Assembly: GCF_013387475.1 (NCBI RefSeq)
Contig: NZ_VWNB01000006.1
Span: forward strand, 1-64,000
Length of the DNA stretch: 64,000 nucleotides
Direction: 5' to 3'
Source of the DNA: Mariprofundus sp. KV
GTDB lineage: Bacteria > Pseudomonadota > Zetaproteobacteria > Mariprofundales > Mariprofundaceae
The notes under the pieces are model-generated. The model did not search any database and was not told where the DNA came from. It saw only the letters and a list, made by a program, of their open reading frames with translations. This document shows positions 24,451 to 48,239 of the stretch, piece after piece (position 1 is the first letter of the stretch; each line of letters begins with the position of its first letter). The translations under genes and the position numbers were made by a program.

Positions 24451-24747
24451 TGAGTTCCCTTCACCCGCAAAATATATCCGTATATTTTGCTTAAATCGTT
24501 ACGCAAAAGCGTCGTTTTGCTTCACTCACAGCCTCATTTCATTTGGCCGCCACCCATCCATGGGTGGATATAAAGGAGCTTTGTTGCAAAGCCCATGACA
24601 ATTCAATCCGCGCGGCAAACATACTATCACACGTTGAAACTATCGATCCCCACCCATGGATGGGTGGCTTTAGTGAACCTTATGAAAACCGCGCTTTTCA
24701 TGAGGTATTTAAGGCAGAGGGCAGGAGCCCGATGCCATATCAAGCAA
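24451..24747. repeat. guaB-guaA gap with paired inverted repeats
   Basis: No gene. CCACCCATCCATGGGTGG (24550-24567) and its exact reverse complement CCACCCATGGATGGGTGG (24650-24667) are 100 bp apart; each is itself nearly palindromic. Closer to guaA, GCAAAATATA/TATATTTTGC (24467-24490) forms a perfect 10-bp stem. The 82 bp between the two 18-mers contain GCTTTGTTGCAAAGC, another hairpin. The layout suggests a small inserted repeat inside a guaB-guaA operon. Confidence 0.65.
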
Positions 24748-31358: not shown

Positions 31359-32242
31359 AATTGAGACTTCCTGCGCCGGCCAAAATCAACCTGCACCTGT
31401 TGGTCACTGCGATTCGCGAGGATGGCATGCACGAGCTTGATACCAGCTTCGCCTATACCGACATCTGCGATGAGCTGCAGATAGAGCCTTGCGATACGCT
31501 GACAGTCAGTTGCTCCACGCCTGAGCTCTCAGGTGAAAAGAATCTGGTGTATAAACTGCTTGATGCTTTCAGAAAACAATACGGCATCTCGCAGGGGCTT
31601 GCCGTTCATATCGTCAAGAATATCCCTGCGCAGGCGGGACTGGGTGGCGGCTCCTCCGATGCTGCCACCGCACTACTGGCTGCCAACCGGCTTTGGCAAC
31701 TGGATATTCCGACAGCGGAGCTGATCACTTTCGCAGCCCCCTTCGGCGCTGATATCCCCTGCTTCCTCTATGGCAAGGCGAGCTGCGCTCGCGGTATCGG
31801 TGAAAAACTCAATGATTACCCGGATTCACTACCTGAAAAGGCACTGCTTCTGGTCTGGCCCGGCACAGGACTCTCTACCGCAGAGGTCTTTCAACACTTT
31901 GATCATCAGATAAATTCGGGGGATCGCACATTGACCCCGCCAGAGGGGCTGGATACCATCCGGCGCGATTCAAGCTGCCTCGGGAAAAATGATCTCGAAG
32001 GTAGCGCATGCAGCCTGAGTCTTGAGGTTTCGCAGCTCCTACAAGCGTTGCGCAAACATTCAGATACAGTATGGATGAGTGGAAGTGGCTCAACATGTAT
32101 TGCCCTGTTTGATCATCCTGAACAGGCCAGAGCCGTGGCAGCACATCTGAAGATGCAGAACCCGGCAAACTGGACGTTTGTCGGCACAATGCAGCAGCAA
32201 CATCAGCTGGATGAGAAATATTGGGACGTAGCCAAGCGGTAA
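31355..32242 (+). CDS. ispE: 4-diphosphocytidyl-2-C-methyl-D-erythritol kinase
   Basis: 295 residues (E. coli 283). A GHMP kinase that phosphorylates CDP-ME in the MEP isoprenoid pathway. It begins PAPAKINLHLLVT (catalytic Lys), has the ATP loop QAGLGGGSSDAATALL, APFGADIPCFLYG with the catalytic Asp, and the third motif WMSGSGSTCIALF. The last seven codons including the stop (WDVAKR, TAA at 32240-32242) lie inside the tRNA-Gln gene, so maturation of the tRNA would cut the ispE message before its stop codon. Overlaps lolB by four bases. Confidence 0.95.
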   Translation: MKLRLPAPAKINLHLLVTAIREDGMHELDTSFAYTDICDELQIEPCDTLTVSCSTPELSGEKNLVYKLLDAFRKQYGISQGLAVHIVKNIPAQAGLGGGSSDAATALLAANRLWQLDIPTAELITFAAPFGADIPCFLYGKASCARGIGEKLNDYPDSLPEKALLLVWPGTGLSTAEVFQHFDHQINSGDRTLTPPEGLDTIRRDSSCLGKNDLEGSACSLSLEVSQLLQALRKHSDTVWMSGSGSTCIALFDHPEQARAVAAHLKMQNPANWTFVGTMQQQHQLDEKYWDVAKR

Positions 32243-32296
32243 GGCAGCGGGTTTTGATCCCGTCATGCGCAGGTTCGAATCCTGCCGTCCCAGCCA
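32222..32296 (+). tRNA. tRNA-Gln (anticodon TTG)
   Basis: 75 nt including an encoded CCA. The acceptor stem TGGGACG/CGTCCCA, the D arm GCC/GGC, the anticodon stem GCGGG/CCCGT around the loop TTTTGAT, and the T arm GCAGG TTCGAAT CCTGC all pair. The anticodon TTG reads CAA, and CAG by wobble. Its first 21 nt are also the end of ispE on the same strand, so it is probably transcribed as part of that operon. Confidence 0.97.
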
Positions 32297-32315
32297 GTTA
32301 TTTTTTCGGGATGCT

Positions 32316-32461
32316 CTGAATAACTACATCCGTGTAGGCATTCAGCAGGCAAAGGAAAAAGTGTCACTGTTCCTTTGCTCACAACATCAGGCACTTAGCG
32401 TGCATGATGTTGGCAGGCCATCCATAGCCTGCTCGGATACGCTGACTTTTTCAGCGCATCC
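32316..32461 (+). ncRNA. Five consecutive hairpins before prs (candidate structured leader RNA)
   Basis: Five stem-loops follow each other with 0-3 nt between them: 32316-32345 (CTGAAT + CTACA stems, TCCG loop), 32349-32378 (GCAAAGGAA/TTCCTTTGC), 32382-32412 (CAACATCA + GCAC stems), 32413-32432 (GCAGGC/GCCTGC), 32435-32461 (GGAT + CGCTGA stems). No ORF or repeat explains them, and the hairpins differ in sequence. They lie between tRNA-Gln and the prs start. A cis-regulatory leader or small RNA is possible; no known riboswitch class is recognised. Confidence 0.6.
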
Positions 32462-32528
32462 TTAGCAGAACCCAGGGTAGAGGTGATCGATGAGCGCTTA
32501 CACTATCGAACAGAGGAGTGATCACACT

Positions 32529-33479
32529 ATGGTCTACGAGAAACTGCGTCTCTTTTCAGGCACCTCAAATCCACCGCTTGCACAGGCGATCTGCGAACAT
32601 ATCGGTAAACCTCAGGGTGAGATCTACACCCAGCGCTTCTCTGATGGCGAAATCTTCATACAGGTCAAAGAGACCATTCGTGGTCTGGATGCCTTCTTTA
32701 TCCAGAGCACATCTGCTCCTGCCAACGACAACCTGATGGAGCTGCTTATCTTTATCGATGCAGCCAAACGTGCCTCAACCCGTAACATCTGTGCTGTCAT
32801 CCCCTACTTCGGCTATGCACGTCAGGATCGTAAAAGTGCCGGACGCACCCCTATTTCAGCCAAACTGGTTGCCGATCTTATCTCCCGTGCCGGTGCAACT
32901 CGCGTATTGACCCTCGACCTGCACGCCACCCAGATTCAGGGCTTCTTCGATATTCCGGTGGACAACATCTTTGCTATCCCGCTGTTTTCCAAGGATATTG
33001 AAGAGAAAAACAATATGGATAATGTGATGATCGTCTCCCCCGATGTGGGTGGTGTGGTTCGTGCCCGCGCACTGGCTGCTCGCTTGCATGTGGATATGGC
33101 GATTGTGGATAAACGTCGCCCTGCCCCTAACGTTGCCAAAGTGATGAACATCATTGGTGATGTGGCTGGCAAACACTGTATTCTCATCGATGATATGGTG
33201 GATACTGCCGGAACCCTCTGCGGCGCTGCCGAAGCCCTGCTTGAGCGTGGTGCGACCAAGGTCAGTGCCTACGCCTCCCACGGTGTCCTCTCTGGACCTG
33301 CGGCAGAACGACTGGTTAAGTCCAATCTGCATGAGCTGGTGATTACTGACAGCATTCTGCAACCGCAGCGAATTCTCGATACCGGCAAGGTTCGCACAAT
33401 CTCAATTGCCCCTCTGATGGGAGAGGCGATCACCCGCATCTACGACGCCCGTTCAATCAGCAGCCTCTACGAGGATTAA
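32529..33479 (+). CDS. prs: Ribose-phosphate pyrophosphokinase
   Basis: 316 residues (E. coli 315). It makes PRPP from ribose-5-phosphate and ATP for nucleotide, His and Trp synthesis. Signatures: LRLFSGTSNPPLA start, the ATP-binding PYFGYARQDRK, the metal site LDLHATQIQGFFD, and the PRPP loop CILIDDMVDTAGTLCGAA. The ATG at 32529 matches the family length and has GGAG 10 nt upstream; the ATG at 32490, with GAGGTG upstream, would add 13 residues and cannot be excluded. In E. coli prs also follows ispE. Confidence 0.96.
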   Translation: MVYEKLRLFSGTSNPPLAQAICEHIGKPQGEIYTQRFSDGEIFIQVKETIRGLDAFFIQSTSAPANDNLMELLIFIDAAKRASTRNICAVIPYFGYARQDRKSAGRTPISAKLVADLISRAGATRVLTLDLHATQIQGFFDIPVDNIFAIPLFSKDIEEKNNMDNVMIVSPDVGGVVRARALAARLHVDMAIVDKRRPAPNVAKVMNIIGDVAGKHCILIDDMVDTAGTLCGAAEALLERGATKVSAYASHGVLSGPAAERLVKSNLHELVITDSILQPQRILDTGKVRTISIAPLMGEAITRIYDARSISSLYED

Positions 33480-48064: not shown

Positions 48065-48239
48065 CCGCAAGGGCCCAAAGAGCGCAAAGTATTTGAAGAG
48101 GCAATCAACTGCAAATGTAATGGCGGAGACCGTGGCTGACCTGTCGCCAGCTGCTAAATAATTTATTTGCCTTTGCGTACTGAAAAACTACATGGACCTG
48201 GTTTTTCAGAGATTTCCTAACCTTTGCACCCTTGGCGGT
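48065..48239. repeat. Gene-free inverted repeat between trxB and mgtE
   Basis: CCGCAAGGG...CAAAG in 48065-48089 corresponds, with one gap, to the reverse complement of 48221-48239. An inner GCGCAAAG (48082-48089) pairs with CTTTGCGT (48171-48178). Built from CGCAAAG units, with no gene inside. Confidence 0.5.

Follow-up and report, generated by a model that had tools for sequence, protein, structure and literature searches.

The five consecutive hairpins that lie between tRNA-Gln and prs in the window (the whole 64,000-nt stretch of DNA that was analyzed) form the interior of a mobile element. Judged by its ends, flanks and dispersed copies, this 153-bp unit (32309-32461, plus strand), which carries no transposase gene, is a non-autonomous MITE, and comparison of the copies demonstrates both that the unit moves and that its structure is maintained. 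On balance, we favor the reading that the element is an IS5-moved MITE whose interior is a selected five-hairpin RNA, with a putative minus-strand transcript that would present two CsrA/RsmA hairpins.

Folding of the region 32300-32480 gives the five hairpins with an MFE of -75.5 kcal/mol, compared with -47.3 +/- 3.9 kcal/mol for dinucleotide shuffles (z = -7.2; 0 of 200 shuffles as low). On the plus strand, HP1 (hairpin 1; 32316-32345) has 6+5 bp with a 2x2 internal loop, HP2 (32349-32378) has 10 bp and is extended inside, HP3 (32382-32412) has 8+4 bp with a 1x1 mismatch, HP4 (32413-32432) has 6 bp, and HP5 (32435-32461) has 4+6 bp with a 1x1 mismatch, the linkers among them being 0-3 nt long. 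The original prediction had placed five stem-loops of these sizes at these positions, and had argued that random sequence would not form them; the fold bears out both statements, as does RNAalifold, which recovers the same five stems when run blind on 68 related copies. The hairpins themselves have the extent that was predicted, whereas the repeat unit to which they belong starts 7 nt earlier, at 32309. Its limits are given by the target-site duplications of the 68 copies, and a covariance-model match covers all of it (1-153/153, 163 bits). The left TIR (GGATGCTCTGAATAAC, 32309-32324, plus strand) is common to IS5-family IS ends, and the 3' arm of HP5 is the right TIR (TCAGCGCATCC). Rfam, at gathering and at relaxed thresholds, recognizes tRNA-Gln alone and gives no match for the hairpin region, which agrees with the earlier view that the structured RNA belongs to no known class. 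The upstream neighbor is tRNA-Gln (TTG; 32222-32296, plus strand) and the downstream neighbor is prs (32529-33479, plus strand), the start of which is most likely the ATG at 32529, after an AGGAG kept in relatives, and not the longer-ORF start at 32490.

Insertion at this locus can be read directly from relatives. In G012 and G001, whose Prs proteins are the most similar among the relatives, the tRNA-to-prs gap is only 33 and 29 nt long, respectively, and both have an empty site without hairpins. The G012 sequence GTTTTTTTAGCAGAACC aligns to GTTATTTTTTCG[153 bp]TTAGCAGAACC in the window, revealing a 4-bp duplication of TTAG; the right copy (32462-32465) is TTAG, which conforms to YTAR, and the left copy (32305-32308) has one mutation, reading TTCG for TTAG by comparison with TTTTTTTAGCAGAACC, the empty site of G012. 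Moreover, the 193-nt tRNA-prs gap, used as a query against its own genome, finds about 12 near-complete copies (75-96% identity) together with many fragments, all at unrelated loci, and relatives carry many further matches. A set of 68 distinct copies of full length, collected from this genome and its relatives, defines a unit of about 153 bp that runs from GGATRCTCTGAATAAC to TCAGAGYATCC. YTAR is present at the left flank of 45 and at the right flank of 54 of the 68 copies; of the 38 copies with YTAR on both sides, 35 have identical flanks, compared to 12.4 expected by shuffled pairing, and exact target-site duplications are seen for 36 of the 68. YTAR is the target rule of IS5 (PMC10359306), and the features by which IS5-family MITEs are recognized are all found here, namely the 4-bp YTAR duplication, shared TIRs, a length below 600 bp, multiple copies and the empty site at prs.

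The GGATRCTCTGAATAAC end word also occurs at about 15 IS ends that lie roughly 100-200 bp away from the ends of contigs in the same assembly, one side of which leads into a frame starting MDQLSFAEAEYDHKRRKTRREAF. A scan of this assembly for the parent IS with DDE_Tnp_1 and DUF772 found just an unrelated 487-aa frame, presumably because the multi-copy IS is collapsed at contig ends, and the parent IS was recovered from relatives. A related IS of 1144 bp in G016 has CTAG/CTAG flanks, like ends and a disrupted frame, and a second related IS, in G020, has a transposase that matches the IS5 family (NF033581, E 1e-100; PF01609, E 1e-34). Presumably, an IS5-type transposase of this kind is able to move the MITE in trans. 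Because the IS is without inner hairpins, the element is not just an internally deleted version of the IS recovered here. It shares with bacterial IS5-family MITEs its short length, lack of coding capacity, IS TIRs, 4-bp YTAR and many intergenic copies, but differs from such MITEs in general by an interior of five hairpins that are conserved and covary, and in which two loop motifs are fixed.

A covariance model (R1) gives 36-50 matches in the genome that contains the window, a number that depends on the filter and includes some weak reverse-strand echoes, and the genome is estimated to have about 35-50 copies or remnants. R1 matches are present in 40 of 78 Zetaproteobacteria genomes, often with 20-39 per genome among the candidates scored, of which there were no more than 39 for each genome. 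Plasmid, phage and viral collections contain no match to the element, and about 20 other genomes of the phylum, from outside the Zetaproteobacteria, gave no convincing matches. In addition, R1 matches a distant family of elements, with 57 matches in G038, 41 in G040 and 7 in G032; G038 and G040 represent another family of the order. The common layout of this distant family is HP1, HP2 (AAAA-GCGCGG-TTTT), a TTACAA linker, HP3, HP4 and HP5, without the GGATRCTCTGA ends, and several copies are flanked by 7-bp direct repeats (ATCCTTG, AATAATG, AATCAAG, AGCTTTG, ATAAACG and ATGATTG). Among loci L375-L404 these 7-bp duplications have the form A-N5-G, and the end hairpins are GATGACTTC...GAAGTCATC.

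The aligned copies show that the hairpins are maintained by compensatory changes. In the blind RNAalifold prediction for the 68 copies, double compensatory changes are observed in 25 of 29 predicted pairs. When all 52 pairs of the structure are considered, 91.1% of cells are paired, compared to 84.3% after shuffling, and changes on both sides affect 34 of 52 pairs and 217 cells, compared to 18.9 pairs and 65.6 cells in shuffled alignments. The covariation score is 0.208, as opposed to 0.096 for shuffled alignments, none of 500 of which scores as high, and controls in which pairing partners were slid give 0.04-0.06. This last control is the more telling one, since shuffles ignore the relatedness of the copies. 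Support comes from all five helices. Mismatched cells on the plus strand are more often A.C (157) than G.T (84), a lean toward G.U on the minus strand, but the strand preference by column (26 versus 16) is not significant (p 0.16).

The apical hexaloops of HP1 and HP4 share a motif. Their plus-strand reading is N-T-C-C-N-T and their minus-strand reading A-N-G-G-A-N, with C-G closure. In the prs copy, the minus-strand loops are ACGGAT for HP1 (32328-32333), which is C-G closed (CACGGATG), and ATGGAT for HP4 (32420-32425), which is closed by a U-G wobble on the minus strand. Across the 68 copies, the fixed loop positions are held in 59-65 for HP1 and 62-67 for HP4, compared to 35 and 35 (HP1) and 52 and 57 (HP4) for the two N positions; ATGGAC and ATGGAT are the commonest minus-strand hexaloops, with ACGGAC and ACGGAT also being frequent. 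When the HP1 loop is one base shorter, CAGGATG, CAGGACG, CAGGAAG or CAGGAGG results. Published rules for CsrA/RsmE describe an ANGGAN hexaloop with variable N and the CAGGA(U/A/C)G repeats of CsrB (PMC7652899), the SELEX consensus is RUACARGGAUGU with six-nt loops and AC/GU pairing (PMC7652899), and a further published binding motif is CANGGANG (PMC6849547). By comparison with these rules, the predicted minus-strand loops of HP1 and HP4 match the published motif of CsrA/Rsm binding hairpins.

We scored 119 distinct full-length copies for a strict form of this motif, namely CA(N)GGANG within a stem of 4 bp or more. HP1 has it in 72 copies and HP4 in 67, and the rest of the minus strand has none in any of the 119 copies, the frequency in shuffled sequence being 0.0025 per copy. 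Both hairpins carry it in 47 of 119 copies, one does in 45 and neither in 27, so that 92 copies have at least one site. GGA has been lost from some copies, and in the main group of the genome under study the U-G closing pair of HP4 is the sole reason for failing the strict C-G rule. In the most diverged third of the copies, differences from the consensus amount to 10.9% at the A/GGA positions, compared to 47.9% at loop N positions, 41.7% in the HP2 loop, 33.3% in the HP3 loop, 26.4% in linkers and 18.8% in stems; the left and right TIRs differ at 28.6% and 11.1%, respectively. Moreover, in 23 of 24 distant-family copies examined, both HP1 and HP4 have a minus-strand CA(N)GGANG in spite of quite different stem sequences. 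The core therefore outlives a change of transposition machinery, perhaps implying that the core is what is selected.

If the minus strand is transcribed, either from a neighboring gene or as antisense, HP1 and HP4 would be exposed as CsrA sites, and HP2-HP3 could serve as a spacer that allows one CsrA dimer to bridge them; the two loops are separated by about 90 nt, and the element thus offers the two sites on which such bridging depends. Many copies in UTRs or antisense RNAs could then titrate CsrA as sponges; where a copy lies beside a start codon, it might become a CsrA-controlled leader. Transcription, CsrA binding and any benefit are steps that we infer from sequence. Among the points against the CsrA reading are that SELEX ligands favor short stems whereas those of the element are long, and that compensatory changes in inverted repeats can also arise from template switching without selection.

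A candidate for such a leader is the old copy before guaA. This degenerate copy (24453-24596, plus strand; R1 18 bits, E 0.005) is located in the guaB-guaA gap directly upstream of guaA, with its end 2 nt short of the guaA start. Its minus strand corresponds to the direction of the guaA mRNA and both ANGGAN hexaloops survive; it is possible that this copy has been co-opted as a CsrA-controlled leader of guaA (GMP synthase).

The distribution of csrA is consistent with the proposed role. PF02599 (csrA) is detected in 63 of the 78 genomes, and twice in the genome that contains the window; of the 40 element-bearing genomes, 38 have a detectable csrA. Among high-quality genomes, the element is carried by 24 of 33 with csrA and 0 of 6 without it (Fisher p 0.0015), and at the level of genera the figures are 13 of 14 and 0 of 4 (Fisher p 0.0016). 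G096 and G097, which have elements and in which csrA was not detected, are MAGs that are 74% and 69% complete, and csrA is present in further genomes of that genus. The lineages that lack csrA are scattered on an rpoB tree, which has many weak forks, and shared ancestry as an explanation of the link is therefore lessened, although not removed. The CsrA of the element-rich genome G024 keeps L4 and R44.

The main rival is a role at the DNA level, in which a MITE that has nothing to do with CsrA would form single-stranded or cruciform structures at replication or transposition, its loops would be read by a DNA-binding protein, and the compensatory changes would stem from template switching or from selection for extrusion. 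The absence of a clear strand preference among mismatched pairs and the inconsistent orientation beside genes are both in keeping with this idea, as is the fact that HP5 is a palindrome of the terminal repeats and that 27-bp palindromes made up of TIRs only exist. It does not predict, however, an asymmetric ANGGAN/AGGAN loop with free N in two unrelated stems, the persistence of these loops in a family whose ends and duplications are different, or the link to csrA, and we consider it rather unlikely. An ordinary selfish MITE, in which the structure of a single ancestor has decayed neutrally and the GGA motif is due to chance, is disfavored and appears improbable. The copies are indeed mobile, dispersed and variably decayed, and stable stem-loop transcripts are common products of MITEs (PMC10969869). 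Neutral decay is nevertheless difficult to reconcile with compensatory changes that far exceed those in the shuffled and slid controls, with old copies that differ by 11% at A/GGA sites and by 33-48% at other loop sites, or with a core that is kept across families with different ends.

Orientation beside genes bears on which strand would be functional. For co-directional genes, as called by a simple codon-usage script, the plus strand of main-family elements is in the mRNA in 23 cases versus 8 (p 0.01), or 21 versus 8 by distinct loci (p 0.02). The distant family exhibits no such bias (7 plus versus 9 minus), and with both families pooled (p 0.08) a strand preference beside genes is not established. 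The lean in the main family could reflect selection against insertions that put the GGA strand into mRNAs, or could mean that CsrA is not involved. It would also fit a function of the plus strand, in which NUCCNU loops pair with the GGA of Shine-Dalgarno sequences or Csr-type RNAs, as antisense or anti-SD hairpins. We regard this as very improbable, given that three-base complementarity is weak, that the variable N positions fit the CsrA rules on the other strand, and that the distant family is without orientation bias.

Least probable is the original prediction of a regulatory leader for prs, be it riboswitch-like or an attenuator, which is refuted as an ancestral prs function: the hairpins are on the sense strand in the prs 5' region, and the element was independently inserted at the same place in G019, but nearly all other relatives lack it in their prs leaders, the nearest has the exact empty site and a gap of about 30 nt, the same unit is found beside dozens of other genes, and no terminator follows the hairpins. 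The compensatory changes expected of such a leader are abundant, yet they occur in copies of the mobile element and not in prs leaders. An mRNA for prs would carry UCC loops in place of GGA; this copy being opposite in sense, prs itself is probably not controlled by CsrA through the element, the direct effect of which on prs is probably that of an inert structured spacer only.

The favored reading, that of a MITE with a selected CsrA-type RNA interior, places the element near several known systems. CsrB/CsrC and RsmX/Y/Z also display GGA hairpins with ANGGAN or CAGGANG loops, which bind CsrA dimers, but each is a single-copy sRNA gene that has many sites as well as a promoter and terminator of its own, whereas the element is multi-copy and mobile and has two sites. 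A stand-alone sRNA of the CsrB/RsmZ type was considered for the prs copy and rejected, there being no promoter or Rho-independent terminator in the copy and its surroundings (32150-32650) and no Rfam match. The Correia/NEMIS elements of Neisseria are likewise dispersed MITEs with folded transcripts, for which an effect on neighboring mRNAs via RNase III has been proposed (PMC2229807); they reportedly work through stem-loops that RNase III cuts, in contrast to an element with five local hairpins and a loop motif of a protein-binding type. CIR of Caulobacter are intergenic repeats of about 110 bp with a conserved secondary structure and a GANTC protein motif at the terminal loop (PMC2229807). 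The element resembles them in being an intergenic repeat with a conserved fold and a protein motif displayed in a loop, but the CIR motif is a DNA methylation site and that of the element is of the CsrA type for RNA, accompanied by five hairpins and IS-type duplications. BOX elements of Streptococcus pneumoniae (PMC3049150) are similar in being small mobile repeats of modular build whose RNA folds stably. Their sequence and modules are apparently unrelated to those of the element.

A full-text search of the open literature found no paper joining MITEs with Zetaproteobacteria and none joining CsrA sites with a MITE, and a MITE with a conserved five-hairpin core and CsrA-type loops is apparently of an unusual, undescribed sort. 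MITEs are usually seen as decayed passengers. Here, interior loop bases vary less than the left end that is needed for jumping, and they match the motif to which a global RNA regulator binds. The copies are also candidate CsrA-binding RNAs in Zetaproteobacteria, and the element may be spreading regulator-binding sites around genomes. Whether mobile elements seed bacterial post-transcriptional networks can thereby be tested directly, with a single protein and a single RNA. More tentatively, and with a likelihood somewhat below even, Zetaproteobacteria might possess a transposon-borne, structurally conserved CsrA-binding RNA, present in tens of copies per genome and with at least two types of ends, whose insertions would continually add or rewire nodes of the Csr network, both as sponges within transcripts and as CsrA-controlled leaders, the old guaA copy being an example of the latter.

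Several variants of the element were also observed. A second degenerate copy in the window (48080-48216, minus strand; R1 37 bits, E 1e-7), upstream of a thioredoxin reductase-like gene, has an HP2 that is interrupted by unrelated sequence. The G019 insertion, in the same tRNA-Gln/prs gap, is larger than the copy in the window (L159 1202-1469). Units of 27 bp that consist of two head-to-head TIRs only (GGATACTCTGACTTTTTCAGAGTATCC), with YTAR flanks (L138 739-768 and L139 767-799), apparently represent the minimal element, equivalent to HP5 by itself. Longer variants, about 220 bp in length, have extra hairpins between HP3 and HP4 or inside HP2 (L124, L276, L286, L314, L319 and L328), and the extra hairpin of L286 again has AGGA in its loop. 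G002 contains head-to-tail arrays of two or three elements spaced about 5-9 bp apart (L328 1501-2034, L319 1501-1873 and L327 1501-1939). Finally, many insertions adjoin the stop codon of the upstream gene (L338, L341, L343, L339 and L313), and insertion into a stop codon restores the stop because the YTAR target contains TAA or TAG.
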